Made by a program: the position numbers and the translations under genes. Positions 33,952-56,194 of a DNA stretch of 64,000 nt are shown in pieces. The DNA comes from Acetobacter garciniae (GTDB lineage: Bacteria; Pseudomonadota; Alphaproteobacteria; Acetobacterales; Acetobacteraceae), in NCBI RefSeq assembly GCF_017377735.1, contig NZ_JAFVMH010000007.1:1-64000 (forward strand), given 5' to 3'. How positions within the stretch are numbered: the first letter of the stretch is position 1; each line of letters begins with the position of its first letter. The notes below the pieces were generated by a model, which was given only the letters and a program-made list of their open reading frames with translations, searched no databases and was not told where the DNA came from.

Positions 33952-34015
33952 GCGAAAAACTTTCATGCAAGGTGAAAAACACGGGCAGCAGCAGAAGCAG
34001 CAGACAGGGGGCCCT

Positions 34016-35287
34016 TCAGCGTATGCCGAAATTGCTTTGCCTGGCCTGCATCTTCAACGTATGGAGCTGGCGTTCCACCTGCTCGCCCACAGCCTGGGCA
34101 ACGCCACCGGGGGTGCTGACGCTCACGGATGCGTTGACATGGGTTGCGGGCTCATCCCATCGGGGCCCGCTGGGCAAGGCGGCGGCCCGTTCGGTCGCAA
34201 GCTCCGTCTGGGCCAGGTAATCAGCAACGCCCGCATGGATAAGACCCGTGTGGACAAGACCCATCGTGCCCGGCATGGCGTGCTCACCCGCTGTGGCCGC
34301 CATAAGGGAGCGGGGACCGCCACCCCCGGCCTCTGCGGCCCCGGGTGCGCGAAGACCCCGCGGTGCAGAATGACTGCCGGCCGATGCCCCGCCACCTGCC
34401 AGCCCGGCATCGAACGACCCCGCCCCCTGCCCCACAGAAACGCCGGCCATTGACGGGAAAACCCCTGGTCGGGCCGCCATCATGCCGGAACGACCTTCCC
34501 TGCCCCGCCAGCCATGGCCGCCTGTTGCCGAAGCAGAAGCCCTGTCGGCACGCCAGCGCGCGGCCCCCCATTGCGCCATGCCGTGGCCCAGCCCGAACGG
34601 GCCGGGGCTGGCGGCATTCGCCTGCGGGCCAAGCAGCGCCACCCACGGGTTCTGTCCGCCGGTCCACCCGCCCCCCGCAAGCTTGGCCGCCGGCACGCGT
34701 AGGACTGACAAACCAGCCTCATCACGGCCCACGGATCGCATGGCGTCGCGCAGGCGCCCCGCGCTGGGCGGCGTCACCGGCACAAATGGCAATGCATCTG
34801 ACGGGCCGTTCGCAATCCTGTTGAAAAAATTGTCCGATATGTCGCGAGAAAGCCCGGACGACATGCGGCGGGGAGCAGACACGCCACCGCCGGCACGCCG
34901 CCCCACCATAGGGGAGGCCCAAGCCACCCGCGTCCCGCGCGGCCCGGTGGCGGTGGGGCCGCCAAAAGCCCCGCCACGCGCATGGGCCAGCAGGGCGCGC
35001 AGCCCCGCGAGCACACCGGACAGGGCCGCACCCTCACCCTGCCCCGTATCCGCCGCATGAGGGGTGACCAAAGCTGCATCCACACTCCCGGTCGGAATCA
35101 AAAACCGGTGTCCGTGCATGGATGGGTCAGAACGAAAACCCGCAGCCCCCCCTGCGTCACGGCCTTGTGCCAGACGGCCTGCGCGGTAGCGCCGCAGGGC
35201 TGCCAGCAGGGCTACAAAGCCCATAACGGGCCTTGGGTGCAAGCCGGGGCCAGGCCGGGTGTTCAGCGCGTTCAGAATGGTTGCCAT
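34016..35287 (-). CDS. Short tape measure protein candidate
   Basis: 423-residue Gly/Ala/Arg-rich protein starting three bases after the end of the frameshifted chaperone frame, which is the standard place of the tape measure gene. The C-terminus has YLAQTELATERAAALPSGPRW and GVAQAVGEQVERQLHTLKMQARQSNFGI, typical helical ends. If it is the full tape measure, the tail would be short (tape measures give roughly 0.15 nm per residue, so about 60 nm). Low-complexity character makes family assignment weak. Confidence 0.65.
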   Translation of the reverse strand: MATILNALNTRPGPGLHPRPVMGFVALLAALRRYRAGRLAQGRDAGGAAGFRSDPSMHGHRFLIPTGSVDAALVTPHAADTGQGEGAALSGVLAGLRALLAHARGGAFGGPTATGPRGTRVAWASPMVGRRAGGGVSAPRRMSSGLSRDISDNFFNRIANGPSDALPFVPVTPPSAGRLRDAMRSVGRDEAGLSVLRVPAAKLAGGGWTGGQNPWVALLGPQANAASPGPFGLGHGMAQWGAARWRADRASASATGGHGWRGREGRSGMMAARPGVFPSMAGVSVGQGAGSFDAGLAGGGASAGSHSAPRGLRAPGAAEAGGGGPRSLMAATAGEHAMPGTMGLVHTGLIHAGVADYLAQTELATERAAALPSGPRWDEPATHVNASVSVSTPGGVAQAVGEQVERQLHTLKMQARQSNFGIR

Positions 35288-35290
35288 GCT

Positions 35291-35886
35291 CTACCTGTTG
35301 AAGCGTTTGACCAGCGCCATTTCCAGCAGGTCTTCAAAATCCTCGCTGTCATAGATGGTCTGGAGTTCATGCAGGCTCGCCAGCCCTTCGGAAACGACCA
35401 GCCCGTGGCGTGGTTCTACAGTGGCGTATCGGGCGGCAGGTCGCTGTCGGGCTGAGCCAGAAGGCCGCTCAGCAGGGAGAACAACTGGCTGACGCCCTTG
35501 AAAAAATCCACGTGCAGGGCAAAGGCTTCCTTTTGCAGCCAGCCCACGGTGGGAATTTCCTCGATATCGCTGTCATGCAGGGCACGCCGCAGGGCCGGGT
35601 TGGCGGGATCGGGCTGCACGCTGATACAGCGCATCAGCTCATCGATCAGCGCGTCCATGCGCGCGGGCTCCATCGCGCCGAAAATACCTAGGCCCACCGC
35701 CGCAACTCCGGCAAGCCCCGCCCCTTCGGCAAGGCCGGGAATATCCCCGCCGCCGGCAATGGCGGCCTGCAAACAGTGCCGCCCCCACCGGTCCGCCTGG
35801 ATGGCGGGCATGCGGGTAATGACGAACCGCTTGCCGTAATCGGCCCCGTCCTGGCCGACCGTTACCGTCACTTCGCGGATCGCCAT
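35291..35886 (-). CDS. Tail assembly chaperone, -1 frameshifted long form (gpGT-like)
   Basis: Predicted fusion product of about 197 residues made by -1 frameshifting at 35500-35506. After the slip, the -1 frame stays open for 69 codons and ends with TAG at 35291-35293, three bases before the tape measure ATG at 35287. The extension ends VSEGLASLHELQTIYDSEDF followed by an acidic-basic helix (EDLLEMALVKRFNR). That looks like a real protein segment, unlike the random Arg/Pro-rich stretch before it. In lambda-type tails, the G and GT forms coat the tape measure during assembly. The arrangement G, slip site, T, tape measure is fully kept here. Confidence 0.8.
35416..35886 (-). CDS. Tail assembly chaperone, short form (gpG-like)
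   Basis: 156-residue protein between the tail tube and the tape measure. REVTVTVGQDGADYGKRFVITRMPAIQADRWG and a C-terminal helical part (KEAFALHVDFFKGVSQLFSLLSGLL) resemble phage tail assembly chaperones of contractile tails. The start at 35886 (ATG) overlaps the tube stop (TGATG). The stop at 35416 is bypassed when ribosomes slip at 35500-35506. Confidence 0.75.
   Translation of the reverse strand: MAIREVTVTVGQDGADYGKRFVITRMPAIQADRWGRHCLQAAIAGGGDIPGLAEGAGLAGVAAVGLGIFGAMEPARMDALIDELMRCISVQPDPANPALRRALHDSDIEEIPTVGWLQKEAFALHVDFFKGVSQLFSLLSGLLAQPDSDLPPDTPL
35500..35506 (-). promoter_or_regulatory. Programmed -1 ribosomal frameshift site T TTT TTC
   Basis: The heptamer fits the X-XXY-YYZ rule exactly in the chaperone reading frame: the preceding codon is GAT, then TTT and TTC. 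Nine bases downstream begins AGCCAG, which can pair with CTGGCT 24 bases further on. An alternative stem CTGAGC/GCTCAG overlaps it. Either could be the stimulatory hairpin. Confidence 0.8.
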
Positions 35887-36320
35887 CACACACCTGCCGG
35901 GTAGACAGCCTGCCAGCGTACGGAAAACCGGCGGTCCTGCAACACGCGTCCCGCACTGGGCATGGCGGCCAGGGCGTGCAGCACGCCGTTGACCAGCGTA
36001 TATTTACGCCCCGTGGACTGGAGCGTAACCTCCGCCCCCAGCCGGTAGAGTGCGCGGGCCGTCTGCTGGGCGGCCAGGATGGCTTCGAACACCAGCACGC
36101 TGTCGCTGCTGGCGGACAGGACAATGGCCTGGTCCACCGGGCTGGGCACCCAGCCCGCGTTCAGGTAGCCATCGATCGACATTTCGCTTTCCGAACAGAT
36201 CTGCTCGGCGGTTTCCCACGCGCGGTCGGTAGCGAAGTTCTGCAACGTGACGGGCGCGTTATACAGGCCCGGCACCGTAATGGTGAAAATGGCGTTGGCC
36301 GCCGTAATATCGAGCGCCAT
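35886..36320 (-). CDS. DUF3277 tail tube protein
   Basis: 144-residue tail tube protein. It begins ITAANAIFTITVPGLYNAPVTLQNFATDRAWE (read in blocks) and contains MSIDGYLNAGWVP and VLSASSDSVLVFEAILAAQ, typical of DUF3277 proteins of contractile phages. It follows the sheath gene with a two-base gap and forms the inner tube. Confidence 0.85.
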   Translation of the reverse strand: MALDITAANAIFTITVPGLYNAPVTLQNFATDRAWETAEQICSESEMSIDGYLNAGWVPSPVDQAIVLSASSDSVLVFEAILAAQQTARALYRLGAEVTLQSTGRKYTLVNGVLHALAAMPSAGRVLQDRRFSVRWQAVYPAGV

Positions 36321-36322
36321 GC

Positions 36323-37750
36323 TTACTGTACCTCAACACTGTTCAGTTGGATGGACTGCACGCTCTGCCCATCCGCGTACCACAGGCGCGCGGGGGGCGT
36401 CGTGCGTGCGGCCCGGTAGCTGGCCGCCGCCGTGGACAGGCCGGGCTGAAAATACCACCCCCTTGTCGCCACGCTGTCAGCCGCCGTGGCAAGGCCTGCG
36501 GCGGTATTGATCTGCTGGCGCTGCAATGCGCTTAACGCCACACCGGGCTGGATGGCCCCGAACGCCACGGCCTGGGCAATGGTGCCCGCAACGGCTGCGG
36601 CCACCAGCGTGTCGCCTTCCGTATTGTAGGGGATCTGCCCAGTGCTGAGCAGCAGGTTCACCAGATCGTCCGTCAGGTTGGCGTTCAGCCAGATCTGGTT
36701 GATATAGCTGTCCGCCCAGGCAAACGGCCCGGACACACTGCCCGGCCGCATGAACTGGAACGCCGCCCCGCCATTGGCGTAGGCCCCGTAAAAATTATAG
36801 CCATTGGCCAGCAGGATTGCCGCCGTGGCACCATCCGTAACGGCGGGGGTCAGCGTGCCCGTGCCGTCGCGCACCATGGCCAGGGTCTGTCGCCCGGCCG
36901 CAGCCCCGAAGGCGAGCGACGCCATCCAGCCCAGGCACAGCGCCGCAGCCGCGGCATTGCCATATACCGCACTGACCCCGCCAAGCGCCTGGGCCGCAAG
37001 CCAGGGGCCGAACGCCGTATTACCGGTTCCCCCACTGGTTCCGCCGCTGGCCCCGCCATTGGCGGCAACCACGGCCTGGGGGTCCGTATCCCAGATCACG
37101 CCCCACACGGCATTGTCCTGCATGCCCACCCAGTTCGCCAGACTCTGCTTGTCCGCCAATGGGGGTTCGAATGCCGGGGCAAAGCCGTTCCATGTCGCAT
37201 TGGCCGCACGCAGGCTGGCCATCTGCGCCGCCGGGTCCGCCCCGGCGGGGGTGATCGTAACCGTGGGGGCGGCTGTATAGCCCGACCCGCCAGCGGTCAC
37301 GACAAGGCCCGTCACCACCCCGCCCGCAACCGTGGCGGTGGCCGTGGCCCCCGTGCCGCCCCCGCCGTCAAGGGTGACAAGCGGGGGCGCTGTGTAACCC
37401 GTGCCCCCGGCGGTGATGGTCAGCGCGCTGATGCTTTCCCCCTCCAGCGTGGCGGTGGCCGTGGCCCCTGTGCCGGTGGTGGGGGCATAACCGCCGAACA
37501 GCAATGTTGCCGGGGCGATCACCGCATTGGCGCACCCCGCGAAATACACGCCCGCCATTGCGGCCTCGGCCGTGGCAGCGCCAAAGGCCGTGGCCACATC
37601 GGCGGCACTGGTATAGGCGGTGACGGTGCCCGCGGGCACGACGTCGGTATCCTGGGTCAGGATCAGGCCCGTCAGGTCGTTCAGCCCGCCGCCTGCGGCA
37701 AGAACGCCCGGCGTGACCTGAACAAGGGTGGAAATGGGAATGCCTGCCAC
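36323..37750 (-). CDS. DUF3383 tail sheath protein with a duplicated beta-repeat insert
   Basis: 475-residue sheath. The N-terminus [20 protein letters not shown] and the C-terminal half ([56 protein letters not shown]) are typical DUF3383 parts. Between about residues 93 and 170 there are two copies of a Gly/Thr/Tyr motif, [20 protein letters not shown] and [17 protein letters not shown]. Each is preceded by TGATATAT, which is not a usual sheath segment and may be a surface-exposed domain. The gene abuts the tube gene. Confidence 0.85.
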
Positions 37751-49998: not shown

Positions 49999-50046
49999 AC
50001 ACTTTGTGCTGGTTTCATGCACAAAGTGTGCTAGTATTCCACACAA
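49999..50046. promoter_or_regulatory. Divergent phage switch operators (O1 and O2)
   Basis: O1 is a perfect inverted repeat with 11-base arms ACACTTTGTGC (49999-50009) and GCACAAAGTGT (50019-50029), core TTGTGC-N9-GCACAA. O2 overlaps it as GTGTGC-N9-ACACAA at 50026-50046 and is less perfect. They sit between the repressor gene (plus, start 50103) and the early operon (minus), the classic repressor control region. Confidence 0.8.
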
Positions 50047-50102
50047 CGTGCAAGCGTTTTTTCCGCACTGACATGTATGATCTTTTCGCACATAGTAGGC
50101 GC

Positions 50103-50954
50103 ATGACCGGACCACGTATTACAGACAGGCTGAAAGCCTTGCGCGAACGCGCGGGCTACACCATTCGCGATTTCGCGCGCGCCGTGGGCTATGGGGAGAA
50201 ATTCTCGTCCTACCGCACGTATGAGACCACGTACAAGAAAGAGGTGCTGCCCCTTGGCATGGTCAAGGCGATGGTCCCGGTCCTGAGCGGGCGCGGCACC
50301 CCCCCCATTACCGCCAACGAGGTCTGGAACCTTGCCGGTGTGAGTGCGGGCGAATCCGGCCTGACCGCCGCCGCCAGACGCCCCGCCCCCAGCCGCGAGG
50401 GCGAACCCCACACCACCCATACCGCAGTCGATACAGGGGTGCGCGACACTGCCGGGGCCGCCACCGGGAACAGGACCGGCCACGCGGATCCGGGGCAGGC
50501 CGCGCCCGCAGTGCTGCCCAGCCAGGTGGCGATTCCGGAATACGATGTCATTACCTCTGCCGGGCCGGGCATGGTGCCCGTGCTCTGCGCCCCGGAAGAC
50601 GGGCTGCGCCCGGTCGAACACTGGAACCTGCCGCGCAGCTATATTGCCTCCTTCACCGAAACACCGGATTCGCTGGCCATTGTCCGGGTCGCGGGCGACA
50701 GTATGGAACCCGACTACCAGGCGGGGGATCGCGTGCTGGTGGATACCGCCCACCACAGCCCATCCCCCCCCGGCGTATATGTCCTGTGGGACGGGTTCGG
50801 CCTTGTGCTCAAGCGCCTGGAGCTGCTGCCCGGCACGGAACACCCGAGGCTGGTGCGGATCATGAGCATCAACCCCGCCTATTCCACCTATGAACTCACC
50901 CTGGATGAAATCAGCATCAACGGTCGTGTTGTGGGCAAATGGACGTGGAAATAA
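50103..50954 (+). CDS. S24-family phage repressor (LexA/CI-like)
   Basis: 283-residue repressor. The N-terminal HTH domain (ITDRLKALRERAGYTIRDFARAVGYGEKFSSY, in blocks) resembles Cro/CI-type helices. A long low-complexity linker (residues about 85-145) leads to an S24 peptidase domain with the catalytic Ser200 in AGDSMEP and Lys237 in GLVLKRL. Such repressors self-cleave after RecA activation, linking induction to DNA damage. The start at 50103 has AGG four bases upstream; ATG 50073 is in frame but has no ribosome site. It should bind the operators at 49999-50046 and 51039-51059. Confidence 0.88.
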   Translation: MTGPRITDRLKALRERAGYTIRDFARAVGYGEKFSSYRTYETTYKKEVLPLGMVKAMVPVLSGRGTPPITANEVWNLAGVSAGESGLTAAARRPAPSREGEPHTTHTAVDTGVRDTAGAATGNRTGHADPGQAAPAVLPSQVAIPEYDVITSAGPGMVPVLCAPEDGLRPVEHWNLPRSYIASFTETPDSLAIVRVAGDSMEPDYQAGDRVLVDTAHHSPSPPGVYVLWDGFGLVLKRLELLPGTEHPRLVRIMSINPAYSTYELTLDEISINGRVVGKWTWK

Positions 50955-51030
50955 CCGCGATAGAGCCGCACAACCGTACCCAGCCTGTGCGGCAAGGCAG
51001 AATTCGCACAAGACTGTACGCTTTTTCCGC

Positions 51031-51060
51031 TTGACTTTTTGTGCGGTATTTACGCACAAT
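51031..51060 (+). promoter_or_regulatory. Promoter with third repressor operator
   Basis: A -35 like TTGACT at 51031-51036 and a candidate -10 CACAAT at 51055-51060 (18-base spacing) overlap TTGTGC-GGTATTTAC-GCACAA (51039-51059). The operator half-sites and N9 spacing are identical to O1, so the S24 repressor probably controls the gene at 51090. Confidence 0.7.
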
Positions 51061-51893: not shown

Positions 51894-51969
51894 TGGTGAG
51901 CCGGGAGGGACTCGAACCCTCGACCATTCGATTAAAAGTCGAATGCTCTACCGACTGAGCTACCGGCTC
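51894..51969 (-). tRNA. tRNA-Lys (TTT), CCA encoded
   Basis: On the minus strand the acceptor stem GAGCCGG pairs with CCGGCTC. The D-arm is GCTCAGTCGGTAGAGC. The anticodon arm carries TTT in CTTTTAA, and the T-arm is GAGGGTTCGAGTCCCTC. The sequence ends with an encoded CCA at 51894-51896. The 3' end faces the prophage, so this gene is a possible integration site, but no duplicated 3' end was found on the left. Confidence 0.95.
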
Positions 51970-52166
51970 ACGCTAGAAGCCCGCAGTGTATAAACATGCT
52001 GCGGGATGGGGGTGTTCCTAAACGGATAGGCCACCCCCTGTCAAGCGCGTGGAGGGTTTTTCAACACCACGGCCCATACCCGCCCATGTCAGCCCCGCCT
52101 GTGGGTGGCAGAGCAAGGATCGCTGAAGCGCGCTCCCCCTCCAGCGTTGCGGGCGGGGCTGGTGTT

Positions 52167-52655
52167 TTATGCGGTGGCGGTCGCCGGACGCATGCTGGTG
52201 ATCCGGTCGGGATCTTTCACAACGCCCGAACCACCCGCGCCGCGCTTGATCTTGTCGACATTTTCCATGCCTTCGATCACTTCGCCCACGATGGTGTACT
52301 GCCCGTCCAGATGTGGGGAAGGTTCGAACATGATGAAGAACTGGCTGTTGGCGCTATTGGGATCAGCCGTGCGGGCCATGCCGATGGTGCCGCGTTCGAA
52401 CTTGGCCTTGGTGGTGAATTCGGCCGGCAGGTCAGGCAGGTCGGACCCGCTCATGCCCGTGCCCGTCGGGTCGCCGCCCTGGGCCATGAAGCCGGAAATC
52501 ACGCGGTGGAACGGCACGTTGTCGTAAAACCCGTCTGCCGCCAGGGTGCGGATACGCTCGGCGGCCTTGGGGGCCAGGTCGGGGCGCAGGCGAATGACCA
52601 CGCGCCCTGCCGGAACATCCATGTAAATCAGGTCTTCTGTTTTTGTGTCAGCCAC
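52167..52655 (-). CDS. Peptidyl-prolyl cis-trans isomerase, cyclophilin type
   Basis: 162-residue cyclophilin-type PPIase that speeds proline isomerisation in folding. Active-site blocks are NVPFHRVISGFMAQGGDPTGTG, GTIGMARTADPNSANSQFFIMF and HLDGQYTIVGEVIEGME. There is no signal peptide, so it acts in the cytoplasm. It lies downstream of coaD with a 135-base gap. Confidence 0.93.
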   Translation of the reverse strand: MADTKTEDLIYMDVPAGRVVIRLRPDLAPKAAERIRTLAADGFYDNVPFHRVISGFMAQGGDPTGTGMSGSDLPDLPAEFTTKAKFERGTIGMARTADPNSANSQFFIMFEPSPHLDGQYTIVGEVIEGMENVDKIKRGAGGSGVVKDPDRITSMRPATATA

Positions 52656-52790
52656 AGGTTTTCTCCTTCATGTGTGCTGTTATACGCATAACGCCCCGCG
52701 CGGTGCCCCGTAAGGCGGTTTTTCGGGCCACAGGACCCTGCCCACGGCATAAGTCCGCCCACCGCCCGGACAGGGGGCTTGGGCCGGGGG

Positions 52791-53336
52791 TCACAGGGTG
52801 GGGGTCGCCCCCTGCCGCGCGGCCAGGCGGGCGAGCAGGCGCTCCCTGGTCGCGGGGGTGACGAGTTCTGAAATATCGCCCCCATAGCTGGCAATTTCCT
52901 TGACCAGGCTGGAGGAAATGAACTGCGTGCGTTCCGATGCCATGAGAAACACCGTCTCGATCCCGCTATCGAGCTTGCGGTTCATGCTGCTCATCTGAAT
53001 TTCGTAGTCGAAATCGGACAGGGCGCGCAGGCCGCGGATGATCAGCGCCGCACCGTTGGCGCGCACGGCTTCGACCAGCAGGGAATGGAACGCCACCACC
53101 ACGATCTCCGCCCCCGTGCGCGAACGGATGGCGGGCAGCGCGTCTTCCACGCAGGCAATGCGTTCTTCCACCGGCATAAGCGGGTTCTTGCGCGGGTTGC
53201 GGGCCACGCCGATCACCAGCCTGTCCACAAGCCGCGCCCCGCGCTCGATCACGTCCAGATGCCCGGTGGTGACCGGGTCGAACGTGCCCGCGTAAAACCC
53301 AACGCGCCGGACGGGCGCGGCAGGGGGGGCTGTCAT
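52791..53336 (-). CDS. coaD: Pantetheine-phosphate adenylyltransferase
   Basis: 181-residue enzyme of coenzyme A synthesis that adds AMP from ATP to 4'-phosphopantetheine. The ATP site is [19 protein letters not shown] (TxGH motif), followed by [36 protein letters not shown] and the C-terminal [15 protein letters not shown]. Its ATG overlaps the gyrA stop by four bases, so the two are cotranscribed. Confidence 0.95.
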
Positions 53337-56194
53337 GTCCCCGCCCCTTCATCGCCCATGCCGGTACTGCCCGCATCGGTACTACCCGCATCGGCAATGC
53401 CCGCCGCACCGTCAGCCGAACCGGGGGCTGCGTCATCCGCCTCGGCCCCGGCTTCGTCCTCCCCATCATCCATGACCGGGAACACGCTGGTAATGCGTTC
53501 GCTCTCGTTCAGGCGCAGCACGGTCACGCCGCTGGCCTGGCGGGACATGATGCGCACCTGGTCCACCGGCACGCGGATCAGGCGGCCCGCATCTGTCACC
53601 AGCATGACATCCGTGCCCGCCAGCACCGGCAGGGTGGCGGCCACTTCCGACCCGCGCTTGGAAGCCGAGAAGGTCATGTTGGTAATGCCCTGCCCGCCGC
53701 GCCCGCTGACACGGTAGTCATAGGCGGAAGAGCGGCGACCGAACCCGCCATCGCTCACCACCAGCAGGATTTCCTCCGCCGCTTCAAGCTGGGCGAAGCG
53801 TTCGGGGGTCAGGGCTTCCGCCCCCGTGGCGGTGTCTTCCTCATCCGTGTCGGGGGTGACGGGGGTTTCGACCTCGTCCTCGCCATCGGCGGCGTTTTCG
53901 GCGCGGCGGCGGGCATTGGCCATGCGCAGATAGGCCGCGCGTTCTTCCACCGTGGCTTCGACATGGTTCAGCACGGCCAGGCTGATCACCCGGTCGCCTT
54001 CGGCCAGGCGCATGCCCCGCACGCCCGAAGACCCGCGCCCGGCGAACACCCGCAGCGTGTCATCGGTAATCTGGAAGCGGATGCAGCGCGCCCCGCGCGT
54101 GGCCAGGAACACATCCTGCCCTTCGCGGCAGGTGGCCACCCCGATCAGGCTGTCGCCCTCGTCCAGCTTCATGGCGATCATGCCGGAGGAGCGGATATTG
54201 CGGAAATCGCTCAGCCGGTTGCGGCGCACATGCCCGCTGGCCGTGGCAAAGACCAGGTGCAGGCTTTCCCACAGTTCTTCATCCTGCGGCAGGGGCAGCA
54301 CGGCGGTAATGGTGTCGCCCCCCAGGTCGGGCAGCAGGTTGACCAGCGCGCGGCCCTTGGCGGCGGGCCCTGCTTCGGGCAGCCGCCAGACCTTTTCGCG
54401 GTAGACCTTGCCGCCGGATGAGAAGAACATCACCCACTGGTGCGTATGCGCGTTGAACGACCGCACCACGATATCATCCCCGCGCGTGCCCGCCCCCGTG
54501 CGGCCACGGCCGCCACGGTTCTGCGCGCGGAACACATCCAGCGGGGTGCGCTTGATAAAGCCGTCGCGCGTGATGGTCACGACCATCTGCCCGGGTTCGA
54601 TCAGGCTTTCATCATCCTGGTCGCCATCGTATTCGGCAATGTCGGTCATGCGCGGCGTGGCCAGTTCGGCCCGCGCGCGGGACAGTTCCTCGCACAGCAC
54701 TTCCATGCGGCGGGGGCGGCTGACGATGATTTCGAGCAGTTCGTTGATACGGGTCGCCACTTCGGACAGTTCCTGCGTGATCTTGTCACGCTCCAGCCCT
54801 GTCAGGCGTTGCAGCCGCAGTTCCAGAATGCCGCGGGCCTGCGCTTCGGTCAGGCGCACGCGGCCATCCGTCACCACATTGCCTTCGTCATGGATCAGGG
54901 CCAGCAGGGGTTCGACCTCGGCCGCGTCCCATGTGGCGGCCATCAGCGCTTCACGCGCATGGGCGGCGTCGGGGGCGGCGCGGATCAGGGCGATCACGGC
55001 GTCGATATTGGCCACGGCAATGACCAGCCCAACCAGGATATGGCCCCGGTCGCGCGCCTTGTTCAGTTCGAAGCGCGAACGGCGCAGGATCACTTCCTCA
55101 CGGAAGGCGACAAACGCCTCCAGCACGTCCTTCAGCCCCATCAGGCGCGGCTTGCCGCCATCCAGGGCCAGCATGTTCACACCGAAGGAGGTCTGCAACT
55201 GCGTGAAGCGGTAAAGCTGGTTCAACACCACCTCGGGCGTTGCGTCACGCTTGATCTCGATCACCACGCGCATGCCCGAGCGGTCGGATTCGTCGCGGAT
55301 GTCGGAAATGCCTTCCACCTGCTTGGAGCGCACCAGATCGGCAATGCGTTCCTGCAAGGTGGCCTTGTTCACCTGATAGGGAATTTCCGTGACCACAATG
55401 GCCTTACGGTCGCGGCGGATATCCTCGATCTCGGCCTTCGCACGGATAATGACCGAACCGCGCCCGGTGGCGAAGGCGCTGCGAATGCCCGAACGCCCCA
55501 GAATGGTGCCGCCGGTGGGGAAATCCGGCCCCGGCACGATTTCCATCAGGTCATCGAGCGTCATGTCCGGGTTGGCGATCAGGGCCAGGGTCGCGTCTAT
55601 CACCTCACCGGGGTTGTGGGTGGGGATATTGGTGGCCATGCCCACGGCAATGCCGGTCGCGCCATTGATCAGCAGGTTGGGGAAGGCGGCGGGCAGAACG
55701 GTGGGTTCGTTCTCGCTTTCGTCGTAATTGGGCTGGAAATCCACCGTGTCGCGGTCGATATCGTCCAGCAGGAAGGTCGAAGCCTTGGCCAGCCGCGCTT
55801 CGGTATAACGCATGGCGGCGGGGCTATCCCCATCGACGGAGCCGAAATTGCCCTGCCCGTCTATCAGCTTCACGCGCATGGACCAGGACTGCGCCATGCG
55901 CACCATGGCCTCGTAGATCGAACTGTCGCCATGGGGGTGGTATTTACCCATGACCTCACCCACCGCGCGGGCCGACTTGCGGTACGCCTTGTCGTGGGTG
56001 AACCCGCTTTCATGCATGGCGTAGAGAATACGCCGGTGCACGGGTTTAAGGCCGTCGCGTACATCGGGCAACGCGCGCGCGACAATGACCGACATCGCAT
56101 AGGCGAGATAGGAGGAACGCATTTCCTCCTCAATGGTCACGGGCAGCAGGTCTGAGGGCGCCGGGGCTCCGGTCTGGTCAGAAATCTCGGTCAA
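53333..56194 (-). CDS. gyrA: DNA gyrase subunit A
   Basis: 953-residue gyrase A subunit. The quinolone-resistance region reads [20 protein letters not shown], with the drug-sensitive-type Ser. The catalytic Tyr is in [12 protein letters not shown]. The GyrA box that wraps DNA appears as [12 protein letters not shown]. The C-terminal beta-pinwheel follows, with an acidic insert of about 35 residues ([20 protein letters not shown]) between blades and an acidic tail. The start at 56194 gives the normal N-terminus. It is the first gene of gyrA-coaD. Confidence 0.96.

Follow-up and report, generated by a model that had tools for sequence, protein, structure and literature searches.

Does the prophage in this stretch of Acetobacter garciniae DNA make a single tail assembly chaperone, or does it make two, a short form, G, and a long form, G-T, in which a programmed -1 ribosomal frameshift joins a second reading frame to the end of the first? 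The question arises in the window (the whole stretch of 64,000 nucleotides analysed here) within a minus-strand morphogenesis module that comprises terminase, portal, protease, minor head protein, major head protein, tail terminator, sheath (DUF3383) and gp32-like genes and that continues past the G/T region with hub and baseplate genes. The sheath gene (36323..37750, minus strand) matches DUF3383 at E 7.5e-69 and phrog_205, tail sheath, and the gene directly upstream of G (35886..36320, minus strand) matches the Pfam family E217_Gp32 at E 1.4e-20 and phrog_1964, virion structural protein, and probably encodes the tail tube. Gene G thus follows the sheath and E217_Gp32-like genes and precedes a tape-measure-like open reading frame. 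To one side of the prophage module lies a tRNA-Lys gene (51894-51969, minus strand), a possible integration site; the three open reading frames near it (50031-51059, 51996-52691 and 53085-53717) have no PHROG match, and no integrase was identified among these three.

The short form is encoded at 35416..35886 on the minus strand, with 156 residues from the ATG at 35886 or 157 from an alternative GTG at 35889. That this gene is a chaperone, as the first-pass annotation had it, is borne out by the PHROG 1932 profile, ‘tail assembly chaperone’ (phrog_1932, E 5.5e-42), which aligns residues 2-132 of the 157-residue form with profile positions 1-131 of 134. The Pfam family Phage_TAC_15 (PF21822) scores 13.4 bits against the window's G (E 0.12), below its gathering score of 22 bits, and it matches at E <= 0.01 in 16 of the 38 members of our alignment A3, the window protein not among them; judged by profile comparison, G is a distant link to this family and not a scored member of it. 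The AlphaFold model of G (pLDDT 74.5, pTM 0.67) predicts a long C-terminal helix at residues 111-144 that would contain the two slip codons, F128 and F129. Compared with viral predicted structures, the model has four matches at E <= 0.001, including AB1gp01 and one named tail assembly chaperone, and a fold search of the PDB with it returned no solved structure at that threshold. An NCBIfam search with five proteins of the region returned nothing.

Near its 3′ end, gene G carries a single in-phase heptamer of the form XXXYYYZ, the putative -1 slip site T_TTT_TTC (35500..35506, minus strand). The 0-frame codons here read GAT TTT TTC AAG, which places the heptamer in the X_XXY_YYZ phase of the chaperone frame, just as had been claimed at the outset; the 0-frame stop, TAG at 35418-35416, follows 27 codons past the heptamer. 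Counted from the heptamer's last base, the -1 frame stays open for 69 codons and closes with TAG at 35293-35291, after which a single AGC separates it from the ATG at 35287 of the downstream open reading frame. The earlier description of a 69-codon extension ending 3 bases before that ATG is therefore exact. In one sequence, this combination of heptamer and open frame is weak evidence that chance could supply: when the 69 codons are shuffled with dinucleotides preserved, 241 of 2000 versions remain open, and the window contains TTTTTTC 17 times. Both counts agree with a coincidence in a GC-rich gene from which no extension is made, a reading to which we give almost no credence, since the heptamer, the frame and the T protein are conserved over 42 distinct loci whose hosts range from Acetobacter to Helicobacter. 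The site is convincing because it is conserved in relatives, not by single-sequence statistics. As a separate observation, the window's 17 copies of TTTTTTC amount to roughly six times the mean of 2.9 in dinucleotide shuffles.

That conservation was read from 64 fetched loci, among them L001, the copy in the window itself, and many duplicates; with identical regions and four loci removed, 42 distinct loci remained, the window's locus counted. Of these, 63 (duplicates and the window's copy counted) carry the extension in an open -1 frame, the 64th, L020, being a weak match (E 7e-4) that we took as no homologue. A run of six T (T6), searched for in the heptamer phase only, occurs in the same phase in 40 of the 42 distinct loci, again with the window's included. 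The base that follows varies by group: all 23 loci of subfamily A have TTTTTTC, those of subfamily B have TTTTTTG (8 of 11) or TTTTTTA (3 of 11), and in six more distant loci T6 is followed by C, G, C, A, A and T. Over the same comparison, G is 60-83% identical to the window protein in aligned subfamily A and 41-45% in subfamily B. Still more distant relatives, Stenotrophomonas B2 and Lbo240-yong2 (from a cyanobacterium), also have TTTTTTC in phase; where named genomes carry close relatives these are Acetobacter (10 of 10 loci), and the in-phase T6 is common to phages of Acetobacter, Acinetobacter, Pantoea, Pseudomonas, Helicobacter, Stenotrophomonas and a cyanobacterium.

Retention of the heptamer and the -1 frame in related prophages, the check proposed in the first-pass annotation, is thus found almost throughout, with exceptions that concern T6. 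Aeromonas phage 56 (L059) lacks it and has the canonical G_GGT_TTT instead, the distant Nankokuvirus Ab03 (L061) has only GTTTTT, and Klebsiella phage RCIP0114 (L063) has no canonical heptamer and may for that reason slip at a non-standard site. In this last phage, the 0-frame codons at the chaperone end are CAT ATC GCT TTT GTA, and the -1 T part is kept. Two further observations concern individual loci. Genome G000 carries a second related locus (L021; contig C34, 14272-14736), in which the chaperone is 84% identical, TTTTTTC and a T part are again present, and the start of the tape measure looks conventional. In three others (L023, L027 and L043), the reading frame of G is broken ahead of the slip site and continues in a second frame, with slip site, hairpin and T intact.

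A run of six T kept in 40 of 42 distinct loci could also be read as a site of transcriptional slippage, at which RNA polymerase makes a message one base too long or too short, from which the long form is then translated. Six T are, however, short for polymerase slippage, and the run is longer than six in one locus only (T7 in L026). It sits in the X_XXY_YYZ phase, a hairpin lies just downstream of it, and the G_GGT_TTT found in one relative fits tandem tRNA slippage and not slippage on a homopolymer. We consider a transcriptional origin of the long form exceedingly unlikely.

The extension T occupies 35291..35500 on the minus strand (69 codons and the TAG), and its residues 35-69 match phrog_3976 at E 1.4e-8. 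Past the 0-frame stop lies a conserved core, GLVVSEGLASLHELQTIYDSEDFEDLLEMALVKRFNR (35294..35404, minus strand), which is recognisable in all 33 sequences of our alignment and contains two invariant columns; the most distant T core among them, that of L060, is 22% identical to the window's. T matches PHROGs 3976 and 4625, both of unknown function, and we infer that these two families are frameshift extensions annotated as genes. Past the last 0-frame stop, dN/dS for T is 0.09 in subfamily A (n=22) and 0.21 in subfamily B (n=11), which together with the conserved core bears out the initial impression that the last third of the extension looks like real protein. Read in either of the other two frames, roughly this stretch is interrupted by stops in 13 of 22 and 22 of 22 sequences in A, and in 11 of 11 for each frame in B, where differing C-terminal lengths make this frame control crude.

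The two frames also leave their mark where they overlap. Between sequences, the 0-frame synonymous difference falls in subfamily A from 0.60 upstream to 0.23 near the site, with 0.32 across the overlap, and in subfamily B from 0.63 to 0.19, with 0.43 across the overlap, a drop expected from overlapping coding plus a constrained site. The 0-frame tail past the heptamer is relaxed, with dN/dS of 0.74 against 0.22 upstream in A and 0.40 against 0.12 in B, in keeping with the prediction that it would not be conserved in the manner of the -1 frame. Within the overlap, dN/dS of the -1 frame is 0.77 (A) and 1.21 (B) on few synonymous changes; this part of T is not clearly constrained, and protein selection on T is therefore seen only past the 0-frame stop. 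There, by the pattern of substitutions, the extension evolves under purifying selection as a protein.

Alternatively, T might be a separate small protein with its own start, made by coupling or re-initiation past the G stop, and T-like open reading frames have indeed been entered as separate coding sequences in several phages, among them Pantoea PA-1, Aeromonas 56, Highwayman and Ab03. Between the heptamer and the core, a GTG, TTG or ATG stands in the T frame of 4 of the 23 subfamily A loci and 5 of the 11 in subfamily B, with the codon or its position varying; none is found in this stretch in the other 19 A and 6 B loci, and the window's T frame is free of ATG, GTG and TTG all the way from its preceding stop to the core. 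As far as the aligned loci go, T has no conserved start codon in the -1 frame. An independent start would moreover leave the conserved in-phase T6 and the open -1 overlap (63 of 64 loci) unexplained, and we regard it as highly unlikely. In all 11 phage records examined, the T part is either unannotated or entered as a separate hypothetical protein; with a G-T fusion made by frameshifting, the long chaperone form would have been missed by the annotation of these phages, and a correction would be due for Acetobacter prophages. The predicted tryptic peptide across the slip point of G-T is EAFALHVDFFQGR.

The first-pass annotation had pointed to two possible hairpins downstream of the site. In their place, folding predicts one extended imperfect hairpin of 67 nt (35431..35497, minus strand; -30.5 kcal/mol), which starts 2 nt past the heptamer and is a probable frameshift stimulator, with a z of -2.25 and 5 of 200 shuffles as good. 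A consensus fold of 22 subfamily A sequences contains 15 pairs, with 97.6% of cells paired, and two outer pairs show double changes, from C-G to A-U or G-U in six sequences and from G-C to A-U in two. The number of cells with double changes exceeds that in shuffles (8 observed vs. 1.9, with 0 of 500 shuffles as high), while neither the pairs so changed (90 of 500 as high) nor the pair types (203 of 500) are more numerous than in shuffles. Against 0-frame synonymous recoding, a control that preserves the 0-frame protein only and not the -1 frame, the real A sequences fold better (mean z -1.80, 11 of 22 below -1.65); among six upstream control segments the means range from -1.00 to +0.13, and in two segments 9 of 22 sequences also fall below -1.65.

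Subfamily B has a 9-bp GC stem, likewise 2 nt past the heptamer, which hardly varies and so cannot be tested by covariation; by recoding its mean z is -1.26 (3 of 11 below -1.65), against upstream means of -0.34 to +0.91. The distant loci L062 and L064 have a compact GC-rich hairpin 7 and 6 nt past the heptamer, respectively. Folding energy in 60-nt windows does not single out the slip site; in 70-nt windows subfamily A has a peak at the site and equal peaks elsewhere, and in 40-nt windows subfamily B has its lowest mean at the site. Since these energy windows are not specific to the site, the case for the hairpin rests on the consensus fold, the compensatory changes and the recoding control, which together lend it moderate support. 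An Rfam search of 34000-37000 returned nothing. An upstream Shine-Dalgarno-like stimulator, AAGGAAG, about 20 nt before the site, was set aside because it lies too far away for the usual spacing of such stimulators, overlaps codons of conserved residues and was not observed in subfamily B.

More tentatively, we suggest that the stimulator might be an unusually long hairpin (67 nt in the window) that begins 2 nt past the slip site and lies wholly inside the dual-coded stretch, where the DNA would be shaped by two reading frames and an RNA fold at once, the outer stem being kept by double changes and the inner part left free. We hold this to be possible but doubtful; if true, so short a spacer would mark a distinct kind of phage frameshift stimulator.

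Established here are the site, its phase and its conservation, the protein-level selection on T past the 0-frame stop and the finding that no start of T is conserved, and with high confidence we propose that the prophage makes the tail assembly chaperone pair G and G-T by programmed -1 ribosomal frameshifting. The majority of ribosomes would complete gene G and release the 156-residue short form, whereas a minority would pause where the hairpin lies ahead of them, TTT then occupying the P site and TTC the A site; moved one base backwards to read TTT TTT, these ribosomes would translate a further 69 codons in the -1 frame and yield G-T. By analogy with phage lambda, G would coat the tape measure protein, and the less abundant G-T would use its T part to recruit the tail tube subunit; as the two would then have different roles, the ratio of G to G-T would matter. 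In this scheme we infer the slippage and its rate, the part played by the hairpin and how G and T share the work.

Among the side observations, the gene downstream stands out. The open reading frame that begins at the next ATG (34016..35287, minus strand; 423 aa) had been called the tape measure, a claim that stands as regards position and C-terminal similarity to the corresponding proteins of relatives and falls short in that no family model recognises the frame: Pfam, PHROG and NCBIfam searches with it gave no match. Its similarity to a conventional tape measure is weak (E 0.025), its significant blastp matches among relatives are confined to the C-terminal part (66-101 aligned columns), and A, G, P, T and S make up 54% of its residues. 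Relatives with the same chaperone have either short open reading frames (320-467 aa) or conventional tape measures, the latter of 529-734 aa in 9 of 10 and of 381 in one. Compared pairwise, the short forms have dN/dS of 0.41-0.65 in seven pairs, against 0-0.16 for G in five of the seven, the other two G pairs involving the broken G of L043. We describe the product of 34016-35287 as a short, fast-evolving, unrecognised protein that is tape-measure-like by position and C-terminus only.

Judged by its sequence, the Acetobacter-group locus belongs to the lambda G/GT class of frameshifts, a likeness seen in the layout of the locus. As outlined in the excerpted review PMC5009743 (citing Xu et al. 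2004), lambda G/GT frameshifting is an established mechanism and is widely conserved. The present locus has the same logic of gene order, the same short and long chaperone forms and a -1 slip near the 3′ end of G, and, unlike lambda, this prophage has a contractile-tail sheath gene. The lambda slip sequence is G_GGA_AAG. Literature searches on Acetobacter phages, phiAO1, Obolenskvirus and DUF3383 gave no report of such a frameshift among the matches listed.

A closer comparison is offered by the T part of Nankokuvirus Ab03, which is 81% identical to the window's T over 21 aa (E 7e-3). We take Ab03 to be a member of Vandenendeviridae, and the T part described here and that of Vandenendeviridae are probably related. 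For Vandenendeviridae and Andersonviridae, including Pseudomonas phage Adele, a conserved -1 chaperone frameshift was argued in December 2025, with 56 alleles in Vandenendeviridae (PMC12846349, in the excerpted text). In that account, as here, the chaperone precedes the tape measure, a poly-T slip motif lies near its 3′ end, and a downstream open reading frame annotated as hypothetical is argued to be the -1 extension; their motif, however, is GTTTTT, whereas ours is T_TTT_TT[CGA] with a downstream hairpin, in a different phage group, the prophages of Acetobacter. Excerpted reports on other phages describe frameshifting measured at 6% and 7% in two HK97-like chaperone genes (PMC3711429) and, in Vibrio phage X29, a frameshift that is conserved, precedes the tape measure and is likened to gpG/gpGT (PMC5690320), the excerpted account giving no slip sequence. 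Set beside these systems, the mechanism itself is textbook, and what is new, as read from sequence, lies in the details: the Acetobacter group, the T6 heptamer with its variable last base, and the hairpin. In phage P2, gpE and E+E′ are produced by a slip on T_TTT_TTG, and P2 also has a contractile tail; likened by heptamer and tail type, it shares its heptamer with 8 of the 11 subfamily B loci and its contractile tail with the prophage described here.
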